Origin: an uncultured delta proteobacterium
GTDB lineage: Bacteria > Desulfobacterota > Syntrophia > Syntrophales > UBA8958
Direction: 5' to 3'
DNA: 43,275 nt
NCBI GenBank assembly: GCA_903885795.1
Contig: CAISJV010000067.1
Span: 1-43,275 of the forward strand
The notes under the pieces are model-generated. The model did not search any database. It was not told the DNA's origin and was given only the letters and a program-made list of their open reading frames with translations. The translations under genes were made by a program, and so were the position numbers. Positions 13,199 to 39,448 of this stretch are shown here, piece after piece (the first letter of the stretch is position 1; each line of letters begins with the position of its first letter).

Positions 13199-13224
13199 AG
13201 TATAATTCCTCCTTTAAATAGCAA

Positions 13225-13256
13225 GGCCGCCTGGATTATTAGATTTCCAAGCGGCC
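13225..13256 (-). other. Leader hairpin before the 344-aa gene
   Basis: GGCCGC (13225-13230) pairs with GCGGCC (13251-13256), extended by CTGG/CCA(A), with the loop ATTATTAGATTT. A near copy stands at 13872-13903 before the ribbon-helix-helix gene. On the minus strand the stem ends about 10 nt before AAAGGAGG, with no clear U tract. Confidence 0.6.
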
Positions 13257-13282
13257 TGTAGCATTGCTTCTGATATGTGGTT

Positions 13283-13847: not shown

Positions 13848-13871
13848 GATTATTCCTCCTTAAAATAGTAA

Positions 13872-13903
13872 GGCCGCTAGGATTATTAGATTTCCAGGCG
13901 GCC
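13872..13903 (-). other. Leader hairpin before the RHH gene
   Basis: GGCCGC ... GCGGCC with the same ATTATTAGATTT loop as 13225-13256; two stem positions differ. The duplication covers the hairpin and the ribosome binding site spacing, but the genes downstream are unrelated. Confidence 0.6.
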
Positions 13904-13990
13904 TATGTTCCTAAAATTGATAGATTATTATTCTAAACTTAAAGATTAAAAAATTGACTGGCTGAAGTTACTCGTACATATCCTCATACT

Positions 13991-15120: not shown

Positions 15121-15588
15121 AAAAGTCACCTCCTCTCTGATTCAGATCTGATCCTAAATTTTATTTGATCAATATTATGTTCTTAGAACGGACCAAGGTC
15201 AGTGGTGACGATATTGAGAGGATACGGCGAGTATAGAACTAAGGCCGAAAAATGGCCTTGAGTGAAGGACTGGATGCGAAAATAGGGGTTCAGTCCGCTA
15301 CTTGGAAAGGGGGGTTCTTTTTTATTTGAAGATCGTAAATATTTATGGACATGAGGGAGAAAAATGCCTATAAAATATTAGGCGGTGAGGTTGAGAAGAA
15401 CTTCCTCTTCTCATCAGTTGATGAATTTTAAGAACTATGCAAGATTATAATCAATAATTGTTGAAATAGGATGGCACCGCCGGGAAAACAGGCGTAAATG
15501 GAGGAAACAAGAAATAGGTGGGGTCTTCATCACTTTGCCAACTTTTCTTCCAGAGGCCAGTGACCGCTTTAAAATTAGGAGATTTGTT
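15121..15588. other. Intergenic region before the first caspase gene
   Basis: 468 bp between divergent genes. It holds a short hairpin (AAGGCC ... GGCCTT, 15241-15257) and a TATAAT at 15446-15451 that lacks a good -35. GTG with AGGAG upstream starts the caspase gene at the right edge. No ORF that I can support. Confidence 0.5.
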
Positions 15589-16863
15589 GTGAAAAGGCTT
15601 CTGTCGTTCATTTTAGTTATTTCTTTGCCATCCCTATTTGTAGGATGTGCGACCGTTCCCCCTTTGTATCAAGCAGCAAGGATGGGGGATATAACCACTG
15701 TCAAAGAACTGATAGATAAAGGCGCTGATGTGAATGGAAAAGGCGGAGGCGGGATATTAAATGACGACAACGCTTTATCTATTGCATGCTTGGCTGGTCA
15801 CACCGACGTTGTGAAGCTCTTGCTTGCCAAAGGCGCAAATGTGAATACAGCACATGGAAATATGGGGTGGACACCCTTGAGTTCCGCAGCATGGAAGGGC
15901 CATACTGACATTGTAAACCTCTTGCTGGATAAAGGCGCCGATGTAAATAAAGCAATCGTGGGATTGGACAAAGGCGTTGGGACAAGAAACGCAATTGAGC
16001 TTCTTAGGGACGCCAAAAGAGAAAGGGCTGCCAGTCAAGCTGTTGCCGTAGTCTCTAAACCACGAGAAGAGGTAACACCAACTATCAAATCAGATGTTGA
16101 CTCTCTCCCTCCGGCAAAGACCAGAATAAACAATAAAGATTATGCCGTTGTGATAGGAATCGAGCAGTATCGTCAGAAATTGCCCAAGGCTGATTTTTCT
16201 GTAAGCGACGCAAAGCTGGTGAGCGCATACCTTTCCAAGGTTATGGGCTATCCGGAAGAGAATATTGTCACCCTGACCAATGAATATGCGACCAAGAGCG
16301 ACTTTGAGAAATATTTTGAACAGTGGCTTATGAACCATGCTGAAAAGGATAGCACTATTTTCATTTACTACTCCGGTCACGGCGCCCCCAACCCCAAGAC
16401 CGGTGATGCCTATCTTGTTCCTTACGACGGTGATCCTTCATTCATCGCACAGACAGGGTATCCTTTGAAGAAGCTCTATGAGACCCTCGGGAAACTACCA
16501 GCTAAAGAAATCATTGTTGCCCTCGACTCTTGTTTTTCCGGTGCCGGGGGAAGAAGTGTTCTTGCGAAAGGGGCACGACCGCTTGTCATGAATCTCCAGG
16601 ACAACATGGTTCTCTCCAAGAACTTAACCATCCTGTCTGCCTCGTCGGGTGAACAGATAAGCTCAACTTATGATGAAAAAGGGCATGGCTTGTTTACTTA
16701 TTTTCTGCTCAAAGGAATAAAGGATGAAGATGTAGTCAAACTCGACGGATCAATAAAGATAGATGACCTGTTTGGCTACATTAAGCCCCAGGTTGAGCGC
16801 ATTGCGAGGAGGCAATACAACAATGAGCAGACGCCACAATTGATAGGGGCAAAGAAGAATTAG
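15589..16863 (+). CDS. Ankyrin-caspase (C14) lipoprotein, 424 aa
   Basis: GTG start at 15589 chosen for its AGGAG ribosome binding site and because the protein then begins with a lipoprotein signal (MKRLLSFILVISLPSLFVGC; lipobox FVGC, Cys20). Three ankyrin-type repeats follow (about 25-135), then a linker with SDVDSLPPAK and a caspase-like domain (175-424). The catalytic dyad is visible: His264 in YYSGHGAP and Cys315 in LDSCFSGAGG; SASSGEQISS and GLFTYFLLKG complete the fold. Peptidase C14 members cleave after Arg, Lys or Asp. Being lipidated, it should face the periplasm. 9 bp upstream of a decayed DUF4384 gene. Confidence 0.9.
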   Translation: MKRLLSFILVISLPSLFVGCATVPPLYQAARMGDITTVKELIDKGADVNGKGGGGILNDDNALSIACLAGHTDVVKLLLAKGANVNTAHGNMGWTPLSSAAWKGHTDIVNLLLDKGADVNKAIVGLDKGVGTRNAIELLRDAKRERAASQAVAVVSKPREEVTPTIKSDVDSLPPAKTRINNKDYAVVIGIEQYRQKLPKADFSVSDAKLVSAYLSKVMGYPEENIVTLTNEYATKSDFEKYFEQWLMNHAEKDSTIFIYYSGHGAPNPKTGDAYLVPYDGDPSFIAQTGYPLKKLYETLGKLPAKEIIVALDSCFSGAGGRSVLAKGARPLVMNLQDNMVLSKNLTILSASSGEQISSTYDEKGHGLFTYFLLKGIKDEDVVKLDGSIKIDDLFGYIKPQVERIARRQYNNEQTPQLIGAKKN

Positions 16864-16872
16864 ACATCATTT

Positions 16873-17659
16873 ATGAAGAATATTCCAACGTTTTGCATAT
16901 TTCTGATGCTTTCTCTCACTGCTCATGCCGCAGAGAAATCCGTCTGGGTTGATGCTGACGGCAGGCATACATGGGTGAGATTGAGACGCAGAAGGAGGTA
17001 AGAGAGCGGGCCAGACGGGATGCCCAGAACAAGGCGGTGGAAAAGGCAGTTGGAACATTCATCAAATCTCATGCCGTGGTCTCCAATTACCAGATTGCCG
17101 AAGACTTGGTCTATGCTGCCGTGAGGGGAAAAATAACAAAAGAAGAAATAATCACCTCTGACTGGGATGCAAAAGAGAGAAACCTTTACAGGATAAGAAT
17201 CAAGGCCTTGGTCGAGCCTGTCTATCCCGAGAAAGGGGAGGGTCTCTCCGCAAAGCTATCTCTCTCACAACCAGAGCTCCACGAGGGGGAGGAAGTTAAG
17301 ATCTTCTATCAGGTAAGCGAAGACTATTATGCCTATATCTTTTCCATTGCCGCAGACGGTTCAGTAACCCTCCTTTTCCCCAATTCAAATATGCCGGACA
17401 ATTTTACCAAGGCAGGAAGGGATTCCAATTCCCTCCAGCAGATAGCCGTATTCATCTTAAAGCCATGTTCCTGCCAAATCTTAAAGAAAACTCTGCCGAA
17501 GAGAAAATCAAGATTATCGCCACCCGCCACAAAGAAGGGATTTTCCAGATCTATGATGCAAAATCAACAGGAATGATTAGCGAACTTCTCAGGAGGTTGA
17601 ACCAGATCGAACCTACAGACTGGGCAGAGAGCAAAGCAATTTACTATCTTAAGAGATAA
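16873..17659 (+). pseudogene. DUF4384 partner gene, broken by two frameshifts
   Basis: Homologue of the intact protein at 21553-22371, read in three frames. It starts MKNIPTFCIFLMLSLTAHAA (signal peptide). The frame is lost at about 16958-16970, resumes as MGEIETQKEV, is lost again at about 17415-17425 (after NFTKAG) and resumes as FQFPPADS and MFLPNLKEN to the end at 17659. About nine residues (WLLSIGFRE in the intact copy) are also missing near ATRHKEG. Ribosome binding and 9-bp spacing after the caspase gene are conserved. The intact caspase gene may therefore now lack its own partner. Confidence 0.88.
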
Positions 17660-17806
17660 ATAACCAAGATGCTTTTCCCGGTTGGACATTGCTTTCTTTC
17701 AAACTGTATTCAATGTTCTCTATGATTTGCATTTCTAAGGAGTTATAGGTGTAACGGCAATCTTTATCATTTAATATCTTACTAATATTCAAGACATATC
17801 AAAAAT

Positions 17807-18355
17807 CTACATTCCAGGTTTCTGACGGCCTCCCTTGCCTCCACCAGAACCACGTTGATTATCCGAATCAGAACCCACCGGCCTATTGGTGGAATTGCCC
17901 GAACCACGCATAATCCGCGCCCACATAGCCTTTTGTTCTGTTGTGAGAATTTGGAAAACGGTTTGCATGTATTGTGTCCTTTTATCGTTCATCATCCCTT
18001 GAATCAATTGCATGTTCGAAGACGGACTTTCTTTAATTGATTTTCCACTACTTTGGCCTGCCGCATATTGGCCCTTTTGTATTTCCCGTTCAAGATTTAT
18101 CTTCTCTTGAAGAGATTTGATTTCTTGAATCAGGTTGTCTCTAAGGACTGTGATCTTTGATGTCTGGTCTGCGGTCAGGTTAAAGTCCAATAAGAGAATA
18201 TCCGGTATTGTCCCCAGAATATGAAATTCCTCCGGTTGATATGGCTCAGGGTTATCATCCCCACGACTGCGACCACGCTGAGAGCAGGATATTGATATTA
18301 CCGCCACTGCCACCAACAATATCAATATCAATGATTTTTGCCGCATGATAATCAT
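17807..18355 (-). CDS. Spy/CpxP-like (LTXXQ) lipoprotein, 182 aa
   Basis: Start taken at 18355 (MIIMRQKSLILILLVAVAVI), preceded by GAGAGG; MRQKS at 18346 is an alternative. The signal ends at ISISC, a lipobox. The mature part has two LTxxQ motifs (NLTADQTSKITVLRDNLIQE and ILTTEQKAMWARIM) separated by a coiled helix, the plan of periplasmic Spy/CpxP chaperone-like proteins. The C-terminus is Gly/Ser/Asn/Arg-rich and disordered. Upstream codons back to 18439 lack a ribosome binding site. A periplasmic stress or folding role would suit the exported caspases nearby, but this is inference. Confidence 0.7.
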   Translation of the reverse strand: MIIMRQKSLILILLVAVAVISISCSQRGRSRGDDNPEPYQPEEFHILGTIPDILLLDFNLTADQTSKITVLRDNLIQEIKSLQEKINLEREIQKGQYAAGQSSGKSIKESPSSNMQLIQGMMNDKRTQYMQTVFQILTTEQKAMWARIMRGSGNSTNRPVGSDSDNQRGSGGGKGGRQKPGM

Positions 18356-18595
18356 TTTCCTCTCTGGATACTTTTTATTCAAGTGTATATGGATAACTGC
18401 ATAAATTCTATCCATTTTTAATGAAAAGAATTCAATCATAAAAATCTATAATCACGATATGTGATTTGATACCCTATGCTTATGTTGTTTCCCTTTTTTT
18501 GGCCTACTTATTGCGTATTATTAATGGAAACAACTTGAAAGGTGGAGTATAAAGTTTAAAAATACATTACTCCAGCGCAAACAAGGAGGTATAAT

Positions 18596-19081
18596 ATGAA
18601 GAAAGTAGTCTGTTGGGTTTTTATTCTTATAATGGTCATCTTTCTCATAAACCCAATATTCAGTGAAGCAAGAGGCGGTCATGGAGGCGGTTATTATGGT
18701 GGCGGCTATTGGTGGGGTTGGTGGGCGCCTTGGGCGGTAATAGGGGGTGCAGCAGTTTTATCTCCTTACTATGCACCATATTACTATGCACCTCCAACGG
18801 TGGTGATCCGTGAACAGCCTCAGGTGTATTTTCAACCAGCGCAATCTTTAACCCCATCGCCGACTGCGAGAATCTTTGTCTATCCCCGGCAAGGCCAAAA
18901 TGAAGAGTTACAGGCGAAGGATCGTTACGAATGCCATAGCTGGGCTGTAAGCCAGACAAATCACGATCCGACACAACCATCTGCTGGAAACATGACAGAA
19001 GCCCAACGGAATCAAATTCGTGCAGACTATCAACGGGCGCAGGGTGCCTGCCTTGACGGACGCGGGTATACTGTGAAGTAG
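18596..19081 (+). CDS. Exported glycine/tyrosine-rich protein, 161 aa
   Basis: Signal peptide MKKVVCWVFILIMVIFLINP, cleavage near FSEA. Then a low-complexity GGHGGGYYGGGYWWGWW segment, a hydrophobic patch and Y/P-rich linker, and a conserved C-terminal domain (RIFVYPRQGQNEELQAKDRY, ECHSWAVSQTNHDPT, YQRAQGACLDGRGYTVK) with two cysteines. This C-terminal domain recurs in secreted glycine-zipper-type proteins of proteobacteria; function unknown. CAAGGAGG precedes the start. Followed by a dispersed GATC palindrome. Confidence 0.75.
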   Translation: MKKVVCWVFILIMVIFLINPIFSEARGGHGGGYYGGGYWWGWWAPWAVIGGAAVLSPYYAPYYYAPPTVVIREQPQVYFQPAQSLTPSPTARIFVYPRQGQNEELQAKDRYECHSWAVSQTNHDPTQPSAGNMTEAQRNQIRADYQRAQGACLDGRGYTVK

Positions 19082-19138
19082 TCGCCATTATGTCATAAAA
19101 AATAAAATCTGGGGGAATCTTCTTGACCACCTTTTCCT

Positions 19139-19163
19139 AAAAAACGCAGGATCCGGCGCTTTT
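19139..19163. repeat. Dispersed GATC palindrome, copy 2
   Basis: AAAAAACGCAGGATCCGGCG followed by CTTTT. It is also the left end of a longer imperfect repeat shared with 20357-20480. Confidence 0.75.
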
Positions 19164-19262
19164 GAGAATCCATGCATCGCGAAAAAATCTGATATGTTGC
19201 CGAGACTGAATTGTTGGCAGCAAACCACAATAAAAAAAGACCCGTATCCATGAAGGGCCAGG
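19155..19262. repeat. About 110-bp imperfect duplicate, copy A
   Basis: Shares GCGCTTTTGAGAATCCATGC, then GACTGAATT, GCAAAC and AAAAAGACCCGTATCCA, in the same order, with 20373-20480. Copy B contains the HU gene's terminator; copy A keeps a degenerate form of it without any gene in the matching position. It may be the relic 3' flank of a lost HU-like gene. Confidence 0.6.
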
Positions 19263-19427
19263 GATGGAACCCAAAAGAACTCCTGTCTGTCCGGCAACAC
19301 TCCAAGAAGGGCGAGAAGATGACGGAGAAGCAGGATTTGAATTGCGATCCGTCCCTCACATTCAACGCTTAACAATCTGTAATAATATAATATATAAGCA
19401 CCATTTTTTGGCATATCCCCAAAACTA

Positions 19428-19462
19428 CCCCCAAAAATAAATACATCCCGGTTTTTGGGGTA
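19428..19462. other. Hairpin CCCCCAAAAA / TTTTTGGGG
   Basis: CCCCCAAAAA (19428-19437) can pair with GTTTTTGGGG (19451-19460). It lies in 480 bp without a supportable gene (19164-19642), apart from the repeat above and AT-rich sequence. Confidence 0.45.
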
Positions 19463-19642
19463 AATATTTTTCTTACCGGATGAAAAAAGAAAGAGTCAGC
19501 CTTGCTAGGTCAACCCCAGATTCCCGTTTATTATTACCCCCTATAATCAGTCTCGCTTTTGGATTTTATGACCTAAAAATAGAGGAGCAACCTTTAATTG
19601 ATTAATCCCCTATTATCCGCATATTTTGTCCTATCCGGGTAA

Positions 19643-20077
19643 CTAGTCGTCTTCTGGGGTGTCAATAGTTACGGTTACAATGTCTTCCCCCTGCCAGGCG
19701 TTGACGGATATTCCAGGCGTTGACGCAGTGTAGCTGGTATTCCCATTACTGTCTTTTATCTCGTAAAATATCATGCCTGGCATGTCGATTTTGTATTGTT
19801 CAGGTGTTCCAGACCCCATATTTTTACTATCATTGCCTGTGAGCTTTACTTTCCCGCCAAACACCAGAGCATAATATTTATCTTTACCTTTCGCCTGTTC
19901 CGTTGGAATCTCTATGACTGTGACTTGTTCATACTGTCTGCTTGGTATTTTGTCTACTCTGGTCAGTTTGATGGAGGAGCCTTGGCCAGCGCAACCAAAG
20001 ATTGCAAATATCAGCACTGCAAGAATTACTAAAATAGGCATAAAACCTTGCGTCAAGTTTCGAGAAAAATCCCTCAT
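19643..20077 (-). CDS. Lipoprotein, unknown family, 144 aa
   Basis: Signal peptide with a hydrophobic core MPILVILAVLIFAIFGC, where GC is the lipidated cysteine (residue about 29). The mature part is a beta-rich domain (VTVIEIPTEQAKGKDKYYAL, VFGGKVKLTGND, YEIKDSNGNTSYTASTPG) ending with DTPEDD. I do not recognise the family. AAGGAGG lies upstream of the start. It is flanked by caspase-region genes of both orientations; no operon partner is obvious. Confidence 0.65.
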   Translation of the reverse strand: MRDFSRNLTQGFMPILVILAVLIFAIFGCAGQGSSIKLTRVDKIPSRQYEQVTVIEIPTEQAKGKDKYYALVFGGKVKLTGNDSKNMGSGTPEQYKIDMPGMIFYEIKDSNGNTSYTASTPGISVNAWQGEDIVTVTIDTPEDD

Positions 20078-20356
20078 CAGTAGTAACCTCCTTAATCACA
20101 GATTGGATTTATTTCATATATCAAGCATATACAAGTGCTAATTAACATAAGAAGATATTCCGGTCAAACGAAAATCAGACAACCTTTCTATGGCAATCCG
20201 GTTTGTGGTCTTGCCCCTCACATTTTCCCTATGTTCGACGATTTAGTCACGTCCTGATTGTTAACGACTCCACGGCTCCTCCATAACGCAAGAAGTTTAC
20301 TCCTGCACCATGGCACAGGTGGAGCTAACCGACTACCCCCCAATTCCATATCCCTC

Positions 20357-20380
20357 AAAAACGCCGGATCCGGCGCTTTT
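20357..20380. repeat. Dispersed GATC palindrome, copy 3 (perfect palindrome)
   Basis: CAAAAACGCCGGATCCGGCG, then CTTTT. The stem CGCCG-GATC-CGGCG is perfect. Left end of duplicate copy B (to 20480). Confidence 0.75.
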
Positions 20381-20480
20381 GAGAATCCATGCATCCTGAA
20401 AAAGGCCTAATATGCATCCAGAAACTGAATATTGGAAGCAAACACAACGAAAAAGACCCGTATCCAGGAATATTGGACCG
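20373..20480. repeat. About 110-bp imperfect duplicate, copy B
   Basis: Copy of 19155-19262; here it includes the terminator of the HU gene. The 270 bp between the lipoprotein start (20077) and this repeat hold nothing I can support. Confidence 0.6.
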
Positions 20481-20490
20481 GGCCTTTTTG
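20449..20490 (-). terminator. Terminator of the HU gene
   Basis: On the minus strand GGCCCGGTCCA pairs with TGGATACGGGTC (small bulge) and is followed by TTTTT. It lies 30 bp past the HU stop. Confidence 0.65.
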
Positions 20491-20519
20491 AGAGAATCGT
20501 TTTTATAGGTTTCTGAGGT

Positions 20520-20840
20520 CTATTTCTTTTTAGCTGTAGCTTTTGCCTTCGGTGCAGCCTTGACGGGTTTTGCTTTCAGATCCTTGAGCGCTTTCCCAGG
20601 TGAGAATTTGGCATTGGTCTTGGCAGCTATCTTCAATGCTTTTCCAGTCTGAGGATTTCTGCCTACTCGAGCTGCACGGGTTACCGCACTGAAAGTACCA
20701 AAACCCATCAAAGCGACCTTGTCGCCAGCCTTGAGAGCAGCCGTAGTTGCAGCAATGAAGCCGTTGAGCGCTTTCTCAGCCTGAACTTTTGTCAGTCCTG
20801 CGCCATCTGCAATCTTCGCTACGAGTTCCGCTTTTGTCAT
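20520..20840 (-). CDS. HU-family DNA-binding protein with basic tail, 106 aa
   Basis: HU fold: MTKAELVAKIADGAGLTKVQ, AGDKVALMGFGTFSAVTRAA, RVGRNPQTGKALKIAAKT. After residue 88 the family normally stops; here a lysine/alanine/proline tail (LKAKPVKAAPKAKATAKKK) follows, resembling histone H1-like tails of some bacterial HU proteins. It should bind DNA non-specifically and could compact it. ATAGGAGGAATT precedes the start. It stands alone between the lipoprotein and the caspase operon. The other HU/IHF gene of the window is at 8234. Confidence 0.92.
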   Translation of the reverse strand: MTKAELVAKIADGAGLTKVQAEKALNGFIAATTAALKAGDKVALMGFGTFSAVTRAARVGRNPQTGKALKIAAKTNAKFSPGKALKDLKAKPVKAAPKAKATAKKK

Positions 20841-21087
20841 AATTCCTCCTATAAGGTTATTTAGTTCTGTATATACCGCAAATTAGCAAATGTCTACAAT
20901 AATATCTTCAACTGTTTATAGAAATTATCTATTGAATAAAATTGATATTTAAAGGAGAGGCAATAGGTGTCTTTGTAGAGGCTGATGTTTTGCTGATAGC
21001 AGGAAGTTATGTTTCAATCTGATAAACATTTTCGGATCCAAGGGAAAACCAGGCCATCCACCCCTTTTATTCTCCAAGCCATATTCT

Positions 21088-21113
21088 AAAAAACGCAGGA
21101 GTCTGCGCTTTTA
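21088..21113. repeat. Dispersed palindrome, copy 4 (GAGT loop)
   Basis: AAAAAACGCAGGAGTCTGCG, then CTTTTA. The stem is CGCAG/CTGCG with loop GAGT: the A-G mismatch of other copies is compensated. It stands right after the stop of the last gene of the caspase operon, so it probably terminates it. 50 bp of its left flank match 27161-27210. Confidence 0.75.
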
Positions 21114-21118
21114 AAATC

Positions 21119-21505
21119 TCAATCGTTGTCATTGTTTATGTCAGATTCATAACTGCCTGGCAAATGCTCGGCAAAAAAGAAAAACGGAATGGATATGAAA
21201 ATGGAAATAAAGGCCACTGTGAAAGCAAGTGATTTCCCACGCCATATCCCGACAAACCAGCGCCTGAATTCATCTATGAGCACACTTGCCTTTCCACCGA
21301 TGACCTGCAAATCATGCACATACATCTTGGAATCTTCTGGATGAATGGGATATGCTTGTCCATCTATGATTTCGTAGCCCAAAACGTCTCTCGAATCATT
21401 CTCAGCTGCATTATAGATCAAGGCGGCACTGCCCAAACCAACCAGAAGGATAATTATGCCGATGAGATTAAGGTATGTCTGTGGATCTGTGATTTTCCAT
21501 TTCAT
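21119..21505 (-). CDS. Membrane protein with two transmembrane helices, 128 aa
   Basis: Helix 1 LNLIGIIILLVGLGSAALIY (about 12-31) and helix 2 SLAFTVAFISIFISIPFFFF (about 91-110), joined by a 60-residue loop with YPIHPEDSKMYVHDLQVIGG and a WFVGIWRG turn. The topology puts the loop on one side, probably the periplasm. Not recognised. It is the last gene of the caspase operon, 47 bp after the DUF4384 gene, and ends 6 bp before a dispersed palindrome. No strong ribosome binding site is seen. It might anchor or sense for the operon. Confidence 0.6.
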   Translation of the reverse strand: MKWKITDPQTYLNLIGIIILLVGLGSAALIYNAAENDSRDVLGYEIIDGQAYPIHPEDSKMYVHDLQVIGGKASVLIDEFRRWFVGIWRGKSLAFTVAFISIFISIPFFFFAEHLPGSYESDINNDND

Positions 21506-21552
21506 GTTGCGTCTGTTGTATTCTGTCAGAAAAGCTTATATTTGACTTGTTC

Positions 21553-22371
21553 TTATCTCTTAAGATGGTAAGCTGCTGTGGCTTCTGTCCAGTCCGTCAG
21601 ATCAATCTGGTTCAACCTCCTCACAAGGTCGCTTATCATTCCCGTTGATTTTGCATCATAGACCTGGAAAATCCCTTCTCTAAACCCGATGGAAAGCAGC
21701 CATTCCTTCTTCCGAGTGGCAATTATCTTGATTTTCTCTTCAGCAGAGTTTTCTTTATGATTTGGCAGAAACATGGCCCTCAGATGAATTTGGCTATCTG
21801 CGGGAGGAAATTGGTATGCCATTCCCGCTCTGGTAAAATTGTCCGTCATATTTGAATTGGGGAGAAGGAGGGTCACGGAACCGTCGGCCGCAATGGAGAA
21901 GATATAGACATAAGAGTCTGCGCTTACTTGGTAGAATATCTTTACTTCATCGTTTTCCTTCAATTCAGTTTTCGAGAGGGATAGCTTTGCGGAGAGACCT
22001 TCTCCCTTCTCAGGATACACCGGCATAACAAGGGCTTTTAGTTTGACCCTATAAAGATTTCTGTCCTTCTCATCCCATTCCTCTTTGACAATATCAACCT
22101 TCTCTATCTTTCCTCTGACGGCGGCATAGATCATGTCTTCGGCAATCTGATAATTGGAAACCAAGGTATGAGATTTGATGAATACGCCGACTGCCTTTTC
22201 TACTGCCTTATTCTGGGCATCAATCTTTGCCCTCTCTTTAACCTCTTTCTGGGTCTCAATCTCCCCCAATAATGCCTCGCCCGTTGCCTCGATCCAGACC
22301 GGTTTCTCTGCGGCAAGACAGATGTTAGGAAGAAGAAGTAACATGAAACATATCAAGAGAATCTTTTTCAT
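21553..22371 (-). CDS. DUF4384 exported partner of caspase proteins, 272 aa
   Basis: Signal peptide MKKILLICFMLLLLPNICLA. Residues about 30-115 resemble an LPP20/FlgT-type domain (ETQKEVKERAKIDAQNKAVE, NYQIAEDMIYAAVRGKI), and residues about 128-230 are the DUF4384 domain (LSLSKTELKENDEVKIFYQV, YVYIFSIAADGSVTLLLPNS). DUF4384 domains often sit beside or are fused to caspase-like peptidases; their role is unknown, perhaps surface binding or regulation. The gene starts 9 bp after the caspase at 22381, exactly as in the plus-strand copy at 16863/16873. The intact copy is the reference for the pseudogene. Confidence 0.85.
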   Translation of the reverse strand: MKKILLICFMLLLLPNICLAAEKPVWIEATGEALLGEIETQKEVKERAKIDAQNKAVEKAVGVFIKSHTLVSNYQIAEDMIYAAVRGKIEKVDIVKEEWDEKDRNLYRVKLKALVMPVYPEKGEGLSAKLSLSKTELKENDEVKIFYQVSADSYVYIFSIAADGSVTLLLPNSNMTDNFTRAGMAYQFPPADSQIHLRAMFLPNHKENSAEEKIKIIATRKKEWLLSIGFREGIFQVYDAKSTGMISDLVRRLNQIDLTDWTEATAAYHLKR

Positions 22372-22380
22372 AAACGATCT

Positions 22381-23334
22381 CTAATTCTTTTTAGCTCCGA
22401 TCAACTGGGGCGTCTGTTCGTTGTTGAATTGTTTTCTGGCAATGCGTTCCACCTGGGGTTTCAGGTATCCAAACAGGTCGTCCATCTTGATAGATCCATC
22501 CGGTTTAACCACATCTTCATATTTTATGCCCTTGAGCAGATAATAGGTAAACAGACCGTGTCCCTTTTCTTCATATGCCGAACTAACCTGTTCTCCCGAT
22601 GATGCAGACATCACGGTAATGTTCTTTTGAATATTTGGAGTATTGATCATAACGACAAGAGGCTTTGCTCCCTTGGCGAGGACGGAACGTCCACCCGCAC
22701 CGGAAAAACAGGAATCAAGAATAACCGTGATTTCTGTTGCTTTCAGCTTTCCCAGAGAATCATAAAGACGTGCTATGGAATATCCGGTCTCGGCAATAAA
22801 GGTTGGATCACCATCGTAGGGGACAAGATAGGCATCGCCAGTTTTGGTATTTGGGGCGCCGTGTCCGGAATAGTAGATGAAAACTCTGCCATTTTCCTCC
22901 ACATTATTACTCAGCCAACGATCAAAATATTTCTCCATGTCACTCTTGAGCGCTCTATCGTTTAATAGGGTAATCACGTTTTCTTCAGGATAACCCATTG
23001 TCTTCGTCAAATACTCCGAGATGATCTTTGCATCAGCTACCGCAAAATCAGCCTTGGGGAGTTTCTGGCGGTACTGCTCAATTCCGATCACAATGGCATA
23101 GGAGTTCTTGTTTTGTTTGGCTTTCATCAAAGGCAGTTCGTCAACATCGGACCGGACTGTCATAGCAGGTATTGGGTCAGTTGATTGTGGAGCCTTAGGC
23201 GCATCCTTTTTCATGCCCTCTATTATTTGCTGCTCCCGCGTATTTGGCGCGACCAATGGGTCAGACCAGCGGGCGCCAAGGAGCATGCTTAATATGACTA
23301 AAAGTAAAACCACATGTGAAGTCTTTTTCTTCAT
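22381..23334 (-). CDS. Exported minimal caspase-like protein, 317 aa
   Basis: Signal peptide MKKKTSHVVLLLVILSMLLG, no lipobox cysteine, then a 50-residue spacer and the caspase-like domain (about 65-317). The dyad is His158 (YYSGHGAPN) and Cys209 (LDSCFSGAGG). The linker SDVDELPLMK and the block YAIVIGIEQYRQKLPKADFA are shared with the three paralogues. It carries no sensor domain, so it might be a soluble periplasmic executor or may rely on the DUF4384 partner. GAGGAGGGTAAC precedes the start. Followed after 9 bp by DUF4384; part of a leftward operon. Confidence 0.9.
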   Translation of the reverse strand: MKKKTSHVVLLLVILSMLLGARWSDPLVAPNTREQQIIEGMKKDAPKAPQSTDPIPAMTVRSDVDELPLMKAKQNKNSYAIVIGIEQYRQKLPKADFAVADAKIISEYLTKTMGYPEENVITLLNDRALKSDMEKYFDRWLSNNVEENGRVFIYYSGHGAPNTKTGDAYLVPYDGDPTFIAETGYSIARLYDSLGKLKATEITVILDSCFSGAGGRSVLAKGAKPLVVMINTPNIQKNITVMSASSGEQVSSAYEEKGHGLFTYYLLKGIKYEDVVKPDGSIKMDDLFGYLKPQVERIARKQFNNEQTPQLIGAKKN

Positions 23335-23418
23335 GTTACCCTCCTCAGTCCATAATCACATTATTCCAACATCACATTCCTTACAAATACTTGCCCTTGA
23401 TATTCTCCACCAAAGGAT

Positions 23419-24870
23419 TTAATTTATTTTCGCCCCCATCAGATGTGGTGTTTGCTCGTTGTTGTATTGTTTTCTGGCAATGCGTTCCACCTGAGGTTTC
23501 AGGTAGTCGAATAGATTGCTGATTGCAATGGAACCATCCTGCTTTACAACATCTTCGTTCTTAATCCCCTTGAGCATGAAATAGGTAAAAAGTCCGTGCC
23601 CTTTTTCGTCATAGGTTGAGCTAATCTGGTCTCCACCAGAGGCTGACAGAACCTTCATATTCTTTGGTAGAATCACATTGTCCTGAAGATTCATCACCAG
23701 AGGTCGGGCACCTTTTGCAAGGACTGATCTGCCACCTGCACCGGAAAAACAGGAATCTAAGGCAACAACAATTTCTTTTGCCGGAAGTTTACCGAGCGCA
23801 TCATACATTCTTTTTAAAGAATAGCCTGTCTCGGAGATAAAAGATGGATCACCATCATAGGGGACAAGGTAAGCCCCTCCAGTCTTGAGATCTGGCGCAC
23901 CATGGCCAGAATAATAAATGAACACCGTGCTGCCCTTCTCCGCATTATTGGAAAGCCATCTTTCAAAGTATTTTTCAAAATCGCTTTTCGTCGCATATTC
24001 ATTGGTCAAAGTGACAATATTTTCTTCAGGATAACCCATCACCTTTGAGAGATATTCACTAACAAGTTTTGCGTCGTTTGTGGCGAAATCTGCCTTGGGC
24101 AGTTTTTGGCGGTAATTTTCTATGCCGATCACTATTGCATAGGCATTTCTGTTTGGTTTTGTTTTGATTGCTGGGAGTTCGTCAATATCGGATTTGATAG
24201 TTATTTTTTCCGGCACAGGGGCTGCTGTTGTAGATTTAGCAATAATAGTCCTTGGCTCTATCTGTCTCCTCTTAAATCCATTTAACATTTCAACGCCCAA
24301 ATTGGCTTTATCGTATGCCGATCTGTTCATTGGAGAGTCAAGGTATGGCAACTGCTTTGCTGCGGTATCTTTTAGCCCATATACTGCTGAATCCAAATCT
24401 GCACCTTTATCAAATAATATTTTTGCTGTTTCCGGTTGACCGTTATATGCAGCGAAGCTTAATATGGTTAAAGTTCCGAACTTTCCATTCGGGTCATATC
24501 CTTTTTCCAAAAGTTTTTTTACTATATCGTTACATCCACCGCCGGCAGCATAGTAAAATAACCATGGACATTGACCACCATTATTGATTGTCCCATAAGC
24601 ACTTTCAATTAATATTCGGTATATTTCACTTCTACATGTATTGGCACCCTGTAGACTTTCACCCGAGAAAGCCCACATAAATGATGTTAATCCATATTCT
24701 CCTTCTTTTTCACACGCATTAGCACCCTTGGCTAGCAAGTCTTTAACAGCATTAATGTCGCCTCTTACTGCCGCTGAGCTTAAAGGTGTCTTGGGCGAAG
24801 GCATAGACACACATCCGCTGATGAAGCTTAATGCTGTAATGATTAATATATACGCTGATATTTTTCTCAT
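23419..24870 (-). CDS. Ankyrin-caspase lipoprotein, 483 aa
   Basis: Signal MRKISAYILIITALSFISGC with lipobox ISGC (Cys20). Ankyrin-like repeats occupy about 28-195 (LSSAAVRGDINAVKDLLAKG, YAAGGGCNDIVKKLLEKGYD, LSFAAYNGQPETAKILFDKG), then a linker with SDIDELPAIK and the caspase-like domain with His323 (YYSGHGAPD) and Cys374 (LDSCFSGAGG). Ankyrin blocks here are more diverged and longer than in the 15589 protein. Position: third from last of a five-gene minus-strand operon, 84 bp before the next caspase. Lipidation indicates membrane-anchored periplasmic location. Confidence 0.9.
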   Translation of the reverse strand: MRKISAYILIITALSFISGCVSMPSPKTPLSSAAVRGDINAVKDLLAKGANACEKEGEYGLTSFMWAFSGESLQGANTCRSEIYRILIESAYGTINNGGQCPWLFYYAAGGGCNDIVKKLLEKGYDPNGKFGTLTILSFAAYNGQPETAKILFDKGADLDSAVYGLKDTAAKQLPYLDSPMNRSAYDKANLGVEMLNGFKRRQIEPRTIIAKSTTAAPVPEKITIKSDIDELPAIKTKPNRNAYAIVIGIENYRQKLPKADFATNDAKLVSEYLSKVMGYPEENIVTLTNEYATKSDFEKYFERWLSNNAEKGSTVFIYYSGHGAPDLKTGGAYLVPYDGDPSFISETGYSLKRMYDALGKLPAKEIVVALDSCFSGAGGRSVLAKGARPLVMNLQDNVILPKNMKVLSASGGDQISSTYDEKGHGLFTYFMLKGIKNEDVVKQDGSIAISNLFDYLKPQVERIARKQYNNEQTPHLMGAKIN

Positions 24871-24907
24871 AAGACATCCCCATTTTACTCCTTCAAAACA
24901 CCTTTTA

Positions 24908-26851
24908 CTATTTTTTCGCTCCGATCAACTGAGGTGTCTGCTCATTGTTATATTGTTTCCTCGCAATGCGTTCTACCTGGGGCTTTACGTAGCCAAATAA
25001 GTCATCCATCTTGATTGATCCATCCGGCTTTATAACATCTTCGTTTTTAATGCCTTTGAGCATAAAGTAGGTGAACAACCCATGCCCTTTTTCGTCATAT
25101 GTCGAACTTATCTGGTCTCCAGAAGAGGCAGACATAACAGTCATGTTTTTGGACATAGCCACGTTACTTTGGAGACTCATCACAAGCGGTCTTGCACCCT
25201 TAGCAAGAACCGATCTACCTCCACCTCCCGAGAAGCATGAATCAAGAACAACGATGATTTCTTTAGCCTGAAGTTTGTTTAACGATTCATAAAGCCTCTT
25301 CAGAGAATAACCCGTCTGTTCTATGAAAGAAGGATCTCCATCATAAGGCACAAGATAGGCGTCTCCCGTTTTGGGGTTCGGTGCACCATGACCTGAAAAA
25401 TAGACAAAAACCAGGCTGTCCTTCTCAACATTGTTCCAGAGCCATTTTTCAAAGTATTTCTCGAAATCGCTCTTGGCGGCATGTTCACCAGTAAGTGTAA
25501 TGATGTTCTGCTCAGGATATCCCATCACCTTTGCGAGATATTCGGTCACTGTCTTTGCATCATTAACCGCATAATCTGCTTTTGGTAGTTTCTGACGATA
25601 TTGCTCAATACCAATAACTATGGCATAAGCGTTTTTATTCATTCTTGATGAGAATACGGGAGGAACGTCGACATCCGACTCCGTATGGCTAATGAATGTC
25701 GATTCTTTCGATGCCTTCCCTCCAGACTCACCCTTGTTTTTTGCCAAAATAGGCGCGATGAGCTGATCGGATTCAATGAGAAAGTCAGCAAAGGCCACCT
25801 TGATAACGATTTCCTTCTCCATACCCTCACGTAGAACTTTTATATTTGCTGTTGTTCCTGGTTCTAATGCGCTTATCACCTTTAAAAAATCCATTACATT
25901 TAAGCCCTGCGCGTTATTCAGCTTGACGATCACGTCTCCGGCCATAATCCCTGATTTTTCCGCTGGACCGCCTGGCATTGTTCTTACAACATTAGCACCC
26001 TTTATTCCTCCCTTTTTATAATCACTTACCTCTAATCCAATGGCACCTTTTCCGCCCCGGAGTTCCATTGCCTTTTCTTTATTTCCCATAACATAGTAGA
26101 TGAGTGAAAGATCATGATTAGAGTTGTAGTCTAAAGCCGACTTTGCCTGTTTCACTAAATTGATGGCGGTTTCTCCATCTCCAAGACCAAGATACGAAAA
26201 CGCTTTGCCTCTCAAGACATATTGTAATGTGCTTTTTTGTTCCGGTTTTAGGTTTTCAATTGTCTTGTTAAAATCCCTTATTGCCGCGGTAAAATCCCCC
26301 TTACGATAAAATGACCAGCCCCTACTTCCCGTGGCATTAATATCGTTTGGATTTAGTTTCAAAGCCTTATTATAGTTTAAGATTGCTTCGTCATAATTCC
26401 TCTTCTGGTAATAAGACGTGCCTAAACTTACCATGGCGTTAATATCATTGGGCTTTAGTTCTGACGCTTTACTATAATTTAAGATTGCTTCGTCATAATT
26501 CCCCTTCGCCAGATACGTGGAACCCAAGAAGGAGTAACTTGACTGAAGTAGATCATCAGGCCTAAGCTCAATCACCTTCTGAAACGGCTGAATTGCCTCA
26601 TCGTACAGACCTTTATTGTAATAAGCTACGCCAAGCCAGAACCAACTGGGAGCATGGTTGGGATTTAGCGCAATACCTTGTTTAGCATTCGTTATTGCCT
26701 CATCATACTGACCCTTTTCATAATAATATTTTGAAGTCATTGCATAATCTATGGGTGCTGCTGCACACGCTATTATGGATAGAGTCATAAGCAGGATAAC
26801 GCCAATGCGGAATAGATATTTTAAAATATTAGCATCATTCTCTTTTCTCAT
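24908..26851 (-). CDS. TPR-PDZ-caspase lipoprotein, 647 aa
   Basis: Start set at 26851 (GAGAGGTG upstream). Signal ends at TLSIIAC (Cys27). Residues about 35-260 hold five to six TPR units (e.g. ASELKPNDINAMVSLGTSYY, KGNYDEAILNYSKA), about 275-365 a PDZ domain (AEKSGIMAGDVIVKLNNAQG), and about 410-647 the caspase-like domain with His488 (YFSGHGAPN) and Cys539 (LDSCFSGGGG). PDZ domains bind C-termini, as in HtrA-type proteases, so substrate or misfolding sensing is plausible. First gene of the operon; the caspase domains of all four paralogues are strikingly similar, unlike the N-terminal parts. Confidence 0.92.
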   Translation of the reverse strand: MRKENDANILKYLFRIGVILLMTLSIIACAAAPIDYAMTSKYYYEKGQYDEAITNAKQGIALNPNHAPSWFWLGVAYYNKGLYDEAIQPFQKVIELRPDDLLQSSYSFLGSTYLAKGNYDEAILNYSKASELKPNDINAMVSLGTSYYQKRNYDEAILNYNKALKLNPNDINATGSRGWSFYRKGDFTAAIRDFNKTIENLKPEQKSTLQYVLRGKAFSYLGLGDGETAINLVKQAKSALDYNSNHDLSLIYYVMGNKEKAMELRGGKGAIGLEVSDYKKGGIKGANVVRTMPGGPAEKSGIMAGDVIVKLNNAQGLNVMDFLKVISALEPGTTANIKVLREGMEKEIVIKVAFADFLIESDQLIAPILAKNKGESGGKASKESTFISHTESDVDVPPVFSSRMNKNAYAIVIGIEQYRQKLPKADYAVNDAKTVTEYLAKVMGYPEQNIITLTGEHAAKSDFEKYFEKWLWNNVEKDSLVFVYFSGHGAPNPKTGDAYLVPYDGDPSFIEQTGYSLKRLYESLNKLQAKEIIVVLDSCFSGGGGRSVLAKGARPLVMSLQSNVAMSKNMTVMSASSGDQISSTYDEKGHGLFTYFMLKGIKNEDVIKPDGSIKMDDLFGYVKPQVERIARKQYNNEQTPQLIGAKK

Positions 26852-27210
26852 AACGCACCTCTCATTATTCAGTAGCATTTCCCATTAAACACAAAACCAA
26901 GCTTCTTTTCAGAAAACATGGCTTCAATAATCTCCTCATGGTAGCCTCCCTGGATGAAGGTTACAAATCAATCAATATGATAACGTATAGGGTAGATGAG
27001 GCTCTTAAACTCTTCAGATGTCAAGATAATTTAATGTTCACTGAATAATCAGGATGAAGCAGACGTTATCATTTCCATCTGATAAGCAATTTTAATACAG
27101 TCAGATAATCGCTTGTTGATCATCAGAAAGCACACATCCACTGATTTCAACCTTCCAGATTCAAGAAAAACTAGACCATCCACCCCCTTTTATTTTCCAA
27201 ACCATATTCT
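26852..27210. other. Intergenic region upstream of the caspase operon
   Basis: 359 bp with no supportable gene. GATAACGT (about 26979-26986) and ACGTTATC (about 27063-27070) are inverted repeats 77 bp apart, possibly a regulatory site. No convincing sigma-70 promoter toward the operon. About 50 bp before 27210 match the flank of the palindrome at 21088. Confidence 0.5.
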
Positions 27211-30822: not shown

Positions 30823-32730
30823 TCAATCGAACTTTGATTTCTTGGTATTTGGTTTTGCAGCTTGCATGGATTCGGTGACGAGCCTATCCACTACGGTCAT
30901 TTTGCTTCTATCGACCTTCAACGGCACCTTTCCCGTATCCCCAGTGCCACGTTTCGCTTTGAAGACAATCAAATCAATGTTTCCATCATGCTTGATGATG
31001 TCTTCCCAATTTTCTTTCAGAATATACCCTCCGTTCTTGCCTTCCTCCACAGCAGCCAGGATTCCCAGCCAGGACGCCTCATATTCAATTGTCCCTGATT
31101 CCTTGAAAGACGCCATGCTCAATCTCTGTCCGGATTTGTAGGAATCCCTGGCAAGTTCCGAGATGGCTATGATTGGGATATTTTGATCCTTGGCAAGTTT
31201 GGTCAGTTTAGTGATGATGTCATCCACCCGGAGTCTTTCATCTGAAATCTTCTTTTCTGTTTTCAGCTTCCTCAGGTAGTCAACGATGATCACCGGCCCT
31301 TTCCCATGCTTTTTCTTAATCTGCTCAATGAGATCAGGCCATTTTTCAACGGCTATCATGTCCTTGATGATGTATTTCAGGGAAAGGATCTGCTTGATGG
31401 CTGGATCGGCAAAGACCTTTTTAATGTCTGAAACCCGGTTGTTATTGTATTCTTCAATCTTGTGATCACTGAAACGGGCACATGTACGGTATCGCAATTC
31501 ATCCTTGCCATCATCATAGCTGAAGAAAAGAACGGGATAACCATTGAGGCAGATATTGTCCGCCATATTATTCGCTAAGACTGTTTTCCCGGAAGAGGGA
31601 ATGCCACCCAGGATATAGAATCTGCCACCTGCCAGACCTCCATTCATCTGTTTTTGGAGATTCTGAAGCGATCCTTTGCCTGCAAACGGAATCCGGACAT
31701 AATTCTGTTTATACTCGTCTATGGCGGCATTGGCATTATCAAGGAAGGTATTGACATCAACCTTTCCTTTCTGTTCCTGTTTCATAACTGATTGAAATGT
31801 TGATTTCAGCTCGTCAACGGTCATGGGAGGCTTATTTTTATTGTCATTCCATAAACTGACAAACTGCCATGCTTCTTCCTGGGGCATAATTTTTATCAAG
31901 TGGCCAATCAGACTTGTCGCCATATGATTGCGTTCACCGGCAGCACAGCCATTGGCAATTATGTCCGTAAAACTCTTTTCCCCTGATTCACTGGTTACTT
32001 TGCCGGCAGGTTCTTTAGGAACAGAGATGATAGGAGCTGGGACATCTTTCTTGACTTCAGATTTTGGTTTGATGTCCGATTTAGGTTTTCCTTCGGCTCT
32101 ATTTATAGCCTGAAGATAGTCGATCATCCAGTGTGAACATTCAGCAAGATCAATCTCAAAGATAGAATAACCCTCAAGCCATTGATACTGATGACCTGAA
32201 CCATGCATGGAAGGAGGAGCAGCGATTAAACCTCCATCGGCCCGAATATCTATGTCGATATCCTTATTGACACTGTTTCTGATATCAAAACCCGGATGCT
32301 TCATATAGACGTGATAACCTTTGCCGGATTTAACCTTGACGGTATCTTCAGGAAATCCACCCTGTTCATCGGCATATTCAACGGCATGTTCTGAATCCAA
32401 GTCAAAAACGACCAGATTGGAGAGGGCGCCAGTGACAATTCCTATGTTGGCATCAGGATTTGTGTTGAACCAGTGATTGACCTCTTCAACAGATGGAAGC
32501 CTCTCTTGATACTCTGTCCATGCAAGTAGAGGCTGTTTGCACTCCTTGATAAACATCTCTGTATAAATATCTTTCTCAGGCCGTGGCTCTGACAGGGCGG
32601 CATTCTTCTCAAATTCCTTCAGAACCTTTTCTTTAAATTTCGTTGATCTTTTCACAGTCGATGGACTCTTCATCGGGATAACCGAAAGCCCCTTTGCCAA
32701 ATATGATAATGCGATTTCACGTGTTTTCAT
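30823..32730 (-). CDS. Primase-polymerase fused to DnaB/RecA-like helicase, 635 aa
   Basis: Residues about 60-200 are a prim-pol domain: LLAWTEYQERLPS, VVFDLDSEHA (metal-binding DxD), KGYHVYMKHPG and IDIDIRADGGLIAAPPS. Residues about 340-600 are a hexameric-helicase ATPase: Walker A GGIPSSGKT, sensor-like FFSYDDGKDELRYR and Walker B VIIVDYLRKL, followed by IPIIAISELAR. It can thus prime and unwind plasmid DNA in one polypeptide. AAGGAGG precedes the start. It lies upstream of the rep-like gene on the same strand, and downstream of a small ribbon-helix-helix gene. Confidence 0.85.
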   Translation of the reverse strand: MKTREIALSYLAKGLSVIPMKSPSTVKRSTKFKEKVLKEFEKNAALSEPRPEKDIYTEMFIKECKQPLLAWTEYQERLPSVEEVNHWFNTNPDANIGIVTGALSNLVVFDLDSEHAVEYADEQGGFPEDTVKVKSGKGYHVYMKHPGFDIRNSVNKDIDIDIRADGGLIAAPPSMHGSGHQYQWLEGYSIFEIDLAECSHWMIDYLQAINRAEGKPKSDIKPKSEVKKDVPAPIISVPKEPAGKVTSESGEKSFTDIIANGCAAGERNHMATSLIGHLIKIMPQEEAWQFVSLWNDNKNKPPMTVDELKSTFQSVMKQEQKGKVDVNTFLDNANAAIDEYKQNYVRIPFAGKGSLQNLQKQMNGGLAGGRFYILGGIPSSGKTVLANNMADNICLNGYPVLFFSYDDGKDELRYRTCARFSDHKIEEYNNNRVSDIKKVFADPAIKQILSLKYIIKDMIAVEKWPDLIEQIKKKHGKGPVIIVDYLRKLKTEKKISDERLRVDDIITKLTKLAKDQNIPIIAISELARDSYKSGQRLSMASFKESGTIEYEASWLGILAAVEEGKNGGYILKENWEDIIKHDGNIDLIVFKAKRGTGDTGKVPLKVDRSKMTVVDRLVTESMQAAKPNTKKSKFD

Positions 32731-38140: not shown

Positions 38141-38206
38141 CCGGTGTTTTTGGGTATAGAAACACCGGGAGCATATATCCAATCCAAACACCGTATACCC
38201 AAAGTG
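38141..38206. promoter_or_regulatory. Inverted repeats upstream of the integrase gene
   Basis: CCGGTGTTTTTGGGTATA (38141-38158) is followed by AAACACCGG (38160-38168) and, after 22 bp, by AACACCGTATACCCAAA. The second and third are inverted copies of the first. Likely binding sites for the integrase or a regulator controlling it. Confidence 0.5.
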
Positions 38207-38218
38207 GAGGAAATTGCC

Positions 38219-39448
38219 ATGCCAAAACGGATACTACCTCTATCGGACATGCAGGTCAGTAAAATAAAACCTCAACCCAAGCAGATAACTTTATTTGATG
38301 GTGGAGGACTTTTTCTTTTGGTTACACCATCGGGTGGTAAGTTGTGGCGATTCAAGTATCGTTTCGAGGGTAAGGAAAAGCTGCTCGCTTTAGGAACCTA
38401 TCCTGAAATATCCCTCGCTGATGCCAGACAACGTAGAGATGAAGCCCGAAAGCAAATTTCCCATAATATAGATCCGGGAGTCCTCCGTAAGGCTATGAAG
38501 CAAGCAGAGACCGAAGAAACAGAGACCTTCGAGGTTATAGCCCGTGAATGGCATGCGAAATTCACCCCGACATGGACCCCTGGGCATACCGCCACGATCA
38601 TGGGCCGTCTGGAACGCGATATTTTCCCTTGGATTGGCAAACGACCGGTTGCTGCAATCAAGGCTCCTGAACTTTTGACAGTCCTTCGCAGGATAGAAAG
38701 CAGGGGTGCTTTAGAATCGGCGCACCGAATCAGAACCATTGCTGGGCAGGTTTTTCGATATGCCGTTGCTACGGGAAGAGCCGAACGGGACCCAGCAGCC
38801 GACCTTCGAGGAGCATTGCCACAGCCGGGGGAAAAACATCATGCAGCGATAACAGACCCGAAGGAGGTCGCCCCACTTCTAAAGGCTATAGATGGCTATC
38901 AAGGGCATTTCGTCGTAAAGTGCGCCTTGAGACTTGCTCCTATGTTCTTTGTGCGTCCTGGGGAACTACGCAATGCAGAATGGGCGGAAGTTGATCTTGA
39001 CGAAGCTGTCTGGGCGATACCAAAGCACAAGATGAAGATGAAGCAGGATCACATTGTCCCCCTATCCAATCAAGCCATTGAAATATTGACGGAACTGAAA
39101 GAACTGACAGGATCAAGCAGATATGTGTTTCCGTCAGGGCGCTCATTTGTAAGGCCTATGTCGAATAATGCCATACTTGCTGCACTACGCCGTATGGGAT
39201 ACGACAAGGATACCATGACGGGGCATGGCTTTAGGGCTATGGCCAGAACCATTCTTGACGAAGTGTTACAGGTGAGACCTGATTTCATAGAACATCAGCT
39301 TGCCCATGCTGTCAGAGACCCAAATGGCAGAGCTTACAATCGGACAGCACACTTGGCCGAACGTCGGAAGATGATGCAGACATGGGCGAACTATCTTGAT
39401 GAGTTGAAGGTGGGGGCTAAAGTAATAACGTTCCAGAAGGTAAAATGA
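38219..39448 (+). CDS. P4-type tyrosine integrase, 409 aa
   Basis: Site-specific recombinase of the P4/CP4-57 family. Start at 38219 (GGAGG upstream); the upstream extension to 38144 is unsupported. N-terminal DUF4102: DGGGLFLLVTPSGGKLWRFK, then KYRFEGKEKLLALGTYPEIS. Catalytic residues: Arg in FVRPGELRNAEW, Lys in KMKMKQDHIVPLS, His-x-x-Arg in GHGFRAMART, and Tyr in GRAYNRTAHL. It lies right after the tmRNA end and reads away from it, the standard layout for elements that integrate into the ssrA 3' end, so a second small or decayed element may extend to the right. Confidence 0.92.
   Translation: MPKRILPLSDMQVSKIKPQPKQITLFDGGGLFLLVTPSGGKLWRFKYRFEGKEKLLALGTYPEISLADARQRRDEARKQISHNIDPGVLRKAMKQAETEETETFEVIAREWHAKFTPTWTPGHTATIMGRLERDIFPWIGKRPVAAIKAPELLTVLRRIESRGALESAHRIRTIAGQVFRYAVATGRAERDPAADLRGALPQPGEKHHAAITDPKEVAPLLKAIDGYQGHFVVKCALRLAPMFFVRPGELRNAEWAEVDLDEAVWAIPKHKMKMKQDHIVPLSNQAIEILTELKELTGSSRYVFPSGRSFVRPMSNNAILAALRRMGYDKDTMTGHGFRAMARTILDEVLQVRPDFIEHQLAHAVRDPNGRAYNRTAHLAERRKMMQTWANYLDELKVGAKVITFQKVK

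Follow-up and report, generated by a model that had tools for sequence, protein, structure and literature searches.

Four caspase-like genes on one contig

The stretch of DNA analysed here (the window) is one entire contig, C67, of 43275 bases from the 4.0 Mb, 95-contig genome of an uncultured delta proteobacterium (GCA_903885795.1), and it carries four genes for caspase-like (C14) proteases, which we call A to D (Table 1). Four C14 open reading frames (ORFs) with different N-terminal arrangements had been predicted from the letters, and ORF and Pfam analyses found them in place: A has ankyrin repeats (Ank) and C14, B has C14 alone, C again has Ank and C14, and D has tetratricopeptide repeats (TPR), a PDZ_2 domain and C14. 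All four score above the gathering score of PF00656 (51.6-67.4 bits; gathering score 21.4). Over the C14 domain, identity to A is 74% for B, 82% for C and 80% for D, and the SGHG and DSCFSG motifs are invariant. A fifth paralogue is found on another contig of the same genome (C21, locus L013); its C14 domain is 80% identical and follows a different N-terminal part, in which a Pfam scan gave no match.

On the minus strand D, C, B, a DUF4384 gene and a small gene follow one another with gaps of 37, 84, 9 and 47 nt; judged from these coordinates, the run is operon-like. The original prediction set this operon at 26851-21119. The gaps agree with it, but D starts at 26878 and position 26851 is an inner ATG. 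The ORF of A is open from a TTG at 15535. The DUF4384 protein matches PF14326 at 66.1 bits (cut-off 27) and, by eye, has a leader and no lipobox. The broken DUF4384 gene that follows A shows two changes of frame relative to the intact one.

Table 1. Positions of the caspase genes and of other features in the window
Feature	Position	Strand	Remarks
Caspase A: predicted lipoprotein, short ankyrin + SDVD linker + C14	15589..16863	+	C14 at about 16141-16842; AlphaFold model
SDVD linker motif of caspase A	16090..16101	+	Near-fixed distance before the catalytic domain across the family
Broken DUF4384 gene, downstream of caspase A	16873..17659	+	Kin of 21553-22371, in three frames
Small protein, presumably of the membrane, that ends the operon-like run	21119..21505	-	No family match
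DUF4384 protein, leader by eye, common partner gene	21553..22371	-	
Caspase B: hydrophobic leader + linker + C14, without front module	22381..23334	-	
Caspase C: predicted lipoprotein, longer ankyrin + SDID linker + C14	23419..24870	-	
Caspase D: predicted lipoprotein, TPR array + PDZ + SDVD linker + C14	24908..26878	-	Heads the operon-like run
Prim-pol/DnaB-type replication protein	30823-32730		Part of a possible integrated element
Tyrosine integrase	38144-39448		Part of a possible integrated element

A constant catalytic domain behind an acidic linker

Relatives were collected with a profile of the five C14 domains against genome contigs. The best 80 of 86 relatives were kept, giving 79 loci at 45-90% identity; together with the paralogues of the host genome these supplied 125 distinct C14 domains. 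The His and Cys of the catalytic dyad are present in 113/113 aligned domains, as are an Asp two residues before the Cys and an Asp of the first helix (each 113/113). We take both conserved Asp residues to be those of the S1 pocket in Arg/Lys-specific metacaspases and MALT1.

The domain is preceded by an acidic linker. In the linker count the anchor pattern missed 17 of 112 proteins, which were dropped; among the remaining 95, 84 carry an acidic motif D[VIL][DNE] no more than 26 residues before the first core strand, with 75 at one exact distance. A stricter pattern, [STQEN]D[VIL]D, was found in 81/95 proteins and in 42/8932 control windows. We considered SDVD as a site of autocleavage after Asp, for its likeness to caspase sites; the conserved Asp pair, on the S1 assignment assumed above, favours Arg or Lys.

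The AlphaFold model of caspase A has a mean pLDDT of 85.4. Most of the catalytic domain lies at about 90 or above, and the low-confidence parts are the loop 318-332 (after the catalytic Cys), the leader and part of the linker. The closest folds to the modelled domain were Arabidopsis metacaspase 4 (Z 22.8; 2.2 A, 207 aligned), MALT1 (Z 22.1), Geobacter GSU0716 (Z 21.2) and caspases (Z ~20-21). MALT1, an animal cytoplasmic signalling protein, is alike in catalytic fold at 18% identity, and matches by sequence at E<1e-4 were to metacaspases only. The catalytic residues first picked out as motifs are borne out by this fold and by the invariant dyad.

Different modules in front of the same protease

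N-terminal regions of at least 60 residues, from 108 proteins with a domain score of at least 200, were grouped by BLAST linkage. They fell into 27 sequence groups. The ankyrin group is the biggest (49) and 12 groups are single proteins, a few of which are short or in a doubtful reading frame. Among 20 representatives scanned with Pfam, we found DUF2846, thioredoxin, S41+PDZ, PQQ/beta-propeller, laminin-G and a weak CARDB match; most of the other representatives scanned had no Pfam match.

To follow the modules over the family, we used a tree of 113 C14 domains with module labels on 95 rows, single-protein groups and module-free rows being left out. At least 36 label changes are needed on this tree, compared with 44-47 in 30 shuffles; the modules thus track the C14 tree only a little. 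An S41+PDZ protein is the sister of caspase A (ankyrin; support 98) and an ankyrin protein that of caspase B (no module; support 100), and an ankyrin and a DUF2846 protein of one Nitrospirae locus are paired with support 95. A profile search with the ankyrin-bearing alignment returned ankyrin proteins only, among the best 60 matches listed.

Some modules resemble enzymes. Those of the S41 type keep the Ser and Lys in 4/4 cases by eye (the motif pattern itself gave no match), and CxxC is kept in 2/3 thioredoxin modules, the third being short. The idea that modules are dead-enzyme decoys is not supported for the modules that keep these residues.

Export signals

Lipoprotein signals were scored with a rule of our own, which requires a charged start, a hydrophobic stretch and a lipobox; the controls were the other ORFs of at least 200 residues in the same loci (n=475). 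The rule was passed by 73/108 caspase ORFs and by 36/475 other ORFs, or by 61/108 and 28/475 when only ATG starts were allowed. The residue after the lipobox Cys is Ala in 46/73 and Asp in 0/73. Under a looser rule (n=125) there were 80 lipoboxes, 30 plain leaders or helices and 15 ORFs with none, 5 of those 15 being cut by contig ends. It had been predicted that all four window caspases are exported. This agrees with the lipobox of A, C and D and with the hydrophobic leader of B, but B fails the lipobox rule and A passes it only from a TTG/GTG start.

The DUF4384 partner and other neighbours

The close DUF4384 family is present in 30/79 loci; 30 proteins were aligned, and they are 58-91% identical to that of the window, with one at 34%. 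In 25/79 loci the gene lies directly downstream of a caspase ORF (within 300 nt or overlapping, on the same strand), so the caspase-DUF4384 pair does recur in other genomes. The loci with at least 1.5 kb of downstream sequence were divided into classes by their closeness to the window family. From the nearest class outwards, a close DUF4384 protein was found in 15/25, 8/16, 2/17 and 2/10 loci, and any DUF4384 protein in 15/25, 8/16, 4/17 and 7/10. Close to the window family the association is strong; in a largely Nitrospira-type class it is weak. Two Nitrospira-type loci, L068 and L071, encode a C14+DUF4384 protein. We also took eleven extra stretches around more distant caspases, hand-picked from the family-profile matches, and DUF4384 is present in 9/11. 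At locus L149 it lies on the opposite strand to the caspase, 1.9 kb away.

The model of the DUF4384 protein (mean pLDDT 78.2) gave best Foldseek rows with low TM-scores. Its N-terminal part matched LPP20, FlgT (FlgT-N-like) and TIP-alpha at Z 7.0-7.6, which is weak and near the tool's background. The C-terminal part is a beta-sandwich with best rows at Z 7-9.2 (complement/macroglobulin, RbmA, Ig), also near the background. We treat these fold matches as leads only.

Clustering of the neighbours in the 79 loci gave DUF4384 as the commonest (33 loci), followed by a response-regulator-like cluster (16 loci) and a nucleotidyltransferase-like one (10 loci), both labelled by eye. A nucleotidyltransferase-like protein (by eye) is encoded near caspase genes in 11/79 loci (L029, L031, L037, L038, L042, L044, L046, L050, L052, L054, L089). 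The small protein at the end of the operon-like run (21119-21505) had been put forward as a two-helix membrane protein of the operon. Searches of Pfam, NCBIfam and PADLOC gave no match within their limits, and phmmer (E<=1) gave no relative of it among the ORFs at the 79 loci. We reject it as a core part of the system, and a conserved place there is not supported.

Distribution of the family

According to the taxon labels of the database records, the relatives belong to Thermodesulfobacteriota (Deltaproteobacteria), Nitrospirota, Nitrospinota and Elusimicrobia, with a few unplaced; Syntrophaceae and Smithellaceae metagenome-assembled genomes are among the nearest, and the host probably belongs to Syntrophales. 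Within the host genome and 40 related ones, some match at E<=0.001 was found in 29/41 and one under E 1e-100 in only 5/41. Of 395 genomes drawn from the phylum, the host included, 17 match at E<=1e-60. This is an accessory family of patchy occurrence, and on its distribution we reject the idea of a common housekeeping protein, which the original prediction had named as a way in which it could fail.

Most loci have a single caspase ORF (counted at 100 bits or more, fragments included): there is one in 55 loci, two in 15, three in 4, four in 3 and six in 2, so that arrays of 2-6 occur in 24/79 loci. The two Nitrospirae loci with six caspase-type ORFs (L047, L066) have them consecutively; some of these ORFs have a longer C-terminus and most have a leader by rule.

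Searches of mobile DNA gave 67 pattern matches in viral contigs, 0 of them confirmed as relatives, no relative in phage records, and 145 plasmid records with a match, every one below 60% identity.

Retroelement-linked loci of the genus

In the host genome Pfam finds C14 at 14 sites spread over 13 genes; the family profile has further matches on contigs C57, C77 and C78, of which Pfam confirms C57 and C77. By eye, some of the other C14 genes have WD40-like repeats or further extra domains. Besides a DUF4384 protein, the loci on C57 (L133) and C77 (L134) encode a protein of FGE fold, a reverse transcriptase (RT), a C14 protein with a CARDB match, and a protein of HEPN or HRDC type. The scan covered ten of their proteins and showed no NTPase. 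At both loci a variable repeat, with a template nearby, forms the end of the FGE gene, and the differences between repeat and template fall on template A in 15/15 cases over 122 nt and 18/20 over 153 nt. A second genome of the genus supplied two more loci, L143 and L148, with 18/18 and 19/20 over 110 nt; the score used to find these repeats favours A-only changes. The RT was detected by Pfam in L133 and L134 and by phmmer in all four loci, and leaders were seen by eye in the FGE proteins. With an RT and a template/variable pair that differs at template A, all four loci qualify as diversity-generating retroelements.

When 17 loci were compared, DUF4384 was present in 14, RT in 4 and FGE in 6. 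At L131, whose operon is most closely related to that of the window, DUF4384 is directly followed by an FGE gene; neither RT nor a template repeat was found there.

Genomic context of the window

The last 141 nt of the window (43135-43275) are an exact copy of the ends of contigs C21 and C4, an assembly fork. Both branches bear caspase genes, namely the fifth paralogue and a second C14 gene on C21, and a C14 gene (WD40-like by eye) on C4. The first 140 nt (1-140) are likewise common to contigs C43 and C44. Assembly chimerism is an unlikely source of the paralogues, as the caspase repeats within the window are 68-80% identical and the C21 copy 72-83%.

An intergenic palindromic repeat, AAAAACGCAGGATCCGGCGCTTTT, occurs at window positions 5857, 19140, 20357, 21089, 27212, 35427 and 37631; 7 of its 11 distinct positions in the genome (up to 3 mismatches) are on this 43-kb contig. 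Direct copies of 56 nt, 89% identical, lie at 13202-13257 and 13849-13904. The integrase and the replication protein (Table 1) may be parts of an integrated element, the ends of which were not found. When the 28 other window proteins were compared with the fetched loci of the relatives, HU alone matched, besides the end common with C21. The claim that the caspases form one island is not upheld by these results, and a single mobile island is likewise unproved given the viral, phage and plasmid searches above.

Envelope sensor-proteases as an interpretation

We propose, with a probability of roughly one half, that these proteins are sensor-proteases of the envelope which exchange their modules and share a DUF4384 partner. 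Each caspase would be exported and mostly lipid-anchored, probably at the periplasmic face of the outer membrane, and would consist of a variable N-terminal recognition module, the acidic linker SDVDxLP and a constant protease of the paracaspase/metacaspase type. New members may arise when different modules are joined to the same catalytic domain near the linker. The caspases, often in tandem, would be accompanied by one exported DUF4384 protein acting as regulator, scaffold or substrate. On meeting a ligand or a damaged envelope component, the module would cause the protease to be released or clustered, and the active protease would then cut periplasmic targets, probably after Arg or Lys. Recognition is suggested by the repeat and binding modules and by the retroelement link, whilst release or clustering is modelled on general caspase biology. 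As the outcome, a conflict response or controlled self-damage seems more likely than housekeeping. An envelope network of exported proteases with interchangeable sensors had been predicted for the window; the lipobox counts and the mixing of module labels agree with export and interchange, whereas 'network' and 'sensor' go further than these data.

Several results weigh against this proposal. The C14 tree is weakly resolved (52/110 branches open, 28/110 starred), so the count of module changes carries less weight. Homology between proteins that differ in module starts at varying points (median 23 residues ahead of the linker, quartiles -58/-6, 300 pairs), and the module joint is thus not mapped. 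The lipobox rule is failed by 35/108 caspase ORFs, export was judged by our own rules rather than by SignalP, and the position at the outer membrane would follow from the E. coli +2 rule, which may not be that of this phylum. There is no close DUF4384 gene in 49/79 loci, and in the 300-430-bit class, which is largely Nitrospira-type, DUF4384 was found in 2/17 (close) or 4/17 (any); that these relatives mostly do without it counts against a universal partner. The retroelement loci carry a more distant caspase group, not the window family, and none is in the window, which makes their link to the family circumstantial. Some modules may be working enzymes rather than sensors, to judge from the retained S41 Ser and Lys and the thioredoxin CxxC. 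Finally, profiles of caspases already named match only in part or below threshold: the EACC1-associated caspase (NF047832), the best named C14 sub-family match, gives 81.2-88.5 bits for the window caspases, below its curated cut-off of 140, and PADLOC model PDLC02987 gives 65-73 bits as a partial match up to about position 186 of 453, in output that lists no cut-off.

A narrower version of the proposal, which we find attractive but rather unlikely, is immunity of an inflammasome-like kind in the envelope. Arrays of caspases anchored in the outer membrane, with recombining modules and one periplasmic DUF4384 adaptor, would detect phage, toxin or envelope tampering before entry to the cytoplasm, and related loci of the genus would have moved recognition to a separate, exported, retroelement-diversified lectin-fold protein.

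The same genes could instead serve envelope quality control, as stress-tuned proteases that remove misfolded envelope proteins or signal their presence, the PDZ, TPR, thioredoxin and S41 modules acting as binders or co-enzymes. The PDZ of D resembles DegS/DegP-type models and its TPRs resemble envelope assembly proteins, all below cut-offs in the 25 of 51 matches listed. The S41+PDZ, DsbA-like thioredoxin and PQQ_2 (BamB-type) modules of the relatives point the same way, as do the active-site residues retained in the S41 and most thioredoxin modules. The patchiness (17/395), the turnover of modules, the tandem arrays and the retroelement-linked relatives fit recognition or conflict better, and we hold quality control to be a doubtful account. 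We give little credence to secreted or surface effectors against neighbouring cells, with modules that bind the targets. Proteases predicted to be exported, lipid-anchored, multi-copy and module-swapped would suit such a role, and a fratricidal one has been proposed for extracellular metacaspases (PMC3501461). The lipobox, however, favours retention in the cell's own envelope, and DUF4384, the commonest neighbour, is not known to be an immunity protein. It is similarly improbable that the caspases are processing peptidases acting in the maturation of the cell's own surface or secreted proteins. Caspase-like peptidases reportedly carry out processing and release in polymorphic toxin systems, and a C14 fold with export, and one constant protease with many client-binding modules, would be in keeping with this; but the commonest neighbours after DUF4384, the response-regulator-like and nucleotidyltransferase-like proteins, are not evident clients.

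Relation to known systems

Export of bacterial caspases is not in itself a novelty. In prokaryotic metacaspases, N-terminal helices were described as likely signal peptides, with a possible extracellular role and operons of up to three genes (Asplund-Samuelsson 2012, PMC3501461). The contrast with cytoplasmic caspases drawn in the original prediction was therefore overstated. The likeness extends to the C14 domain, mixed architectures, multi-gene operons and the inclusion of Deltaproteobacteria; ankyrin, Ank, TPR, DUF, DUF4384 and periplasm do not appear in its main text in the version consulted. Here, by comparison, a single family combines some 27 groups of modules with arrays of as many as six ORFs and a recurring partner gene.

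In cyanobacterial orthocaspases (PMC7475262) C14 and DUF4384 co-occur as they do here; there, DUF4384 is an accessory domain within the caspase, whereas the window family has it as a protein of its own, with its gene placed after those of the caspases. A link between caspase-type peptidases and hypermutated C-type-lectin/FGE proteins, as at the retroelement loci of the genus, appears in work on retroelement-diversified conflict sensors (PMC10907252) and on cyanobacterial retroelement targets with orthocaspase domains (PMC7517822). In those systems the association is with STAND or MoxR NTPases, or with kinase/orthocaspase fusions; at L133 and L134 no NTPase was visible in the ten proteins scanned.

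Literature searches on caspase and DUF4384 gave only orthocaspase surveys among the matches listed, and searches on metacaspase, Deltaproteobacteria and ankyrin gave none. An exported, module-swapping family was not described in the titles and abstract starts among the matches listed, a scope outside which most subscription papers and preprints fall.

Bacterial caspases have been discussed mostly as cytoplasmic effectors, and a coherent family of exported, module-swapping members with a recurrent partner gene would open a way into envelope signalling by proteolysis. The retroelement-diversified proteins beside its relatives suggest recognition of fast-changing ligands. With one constant protease, one partner and many front ends, the role of exported prokaryotic caspases would become directly testable.

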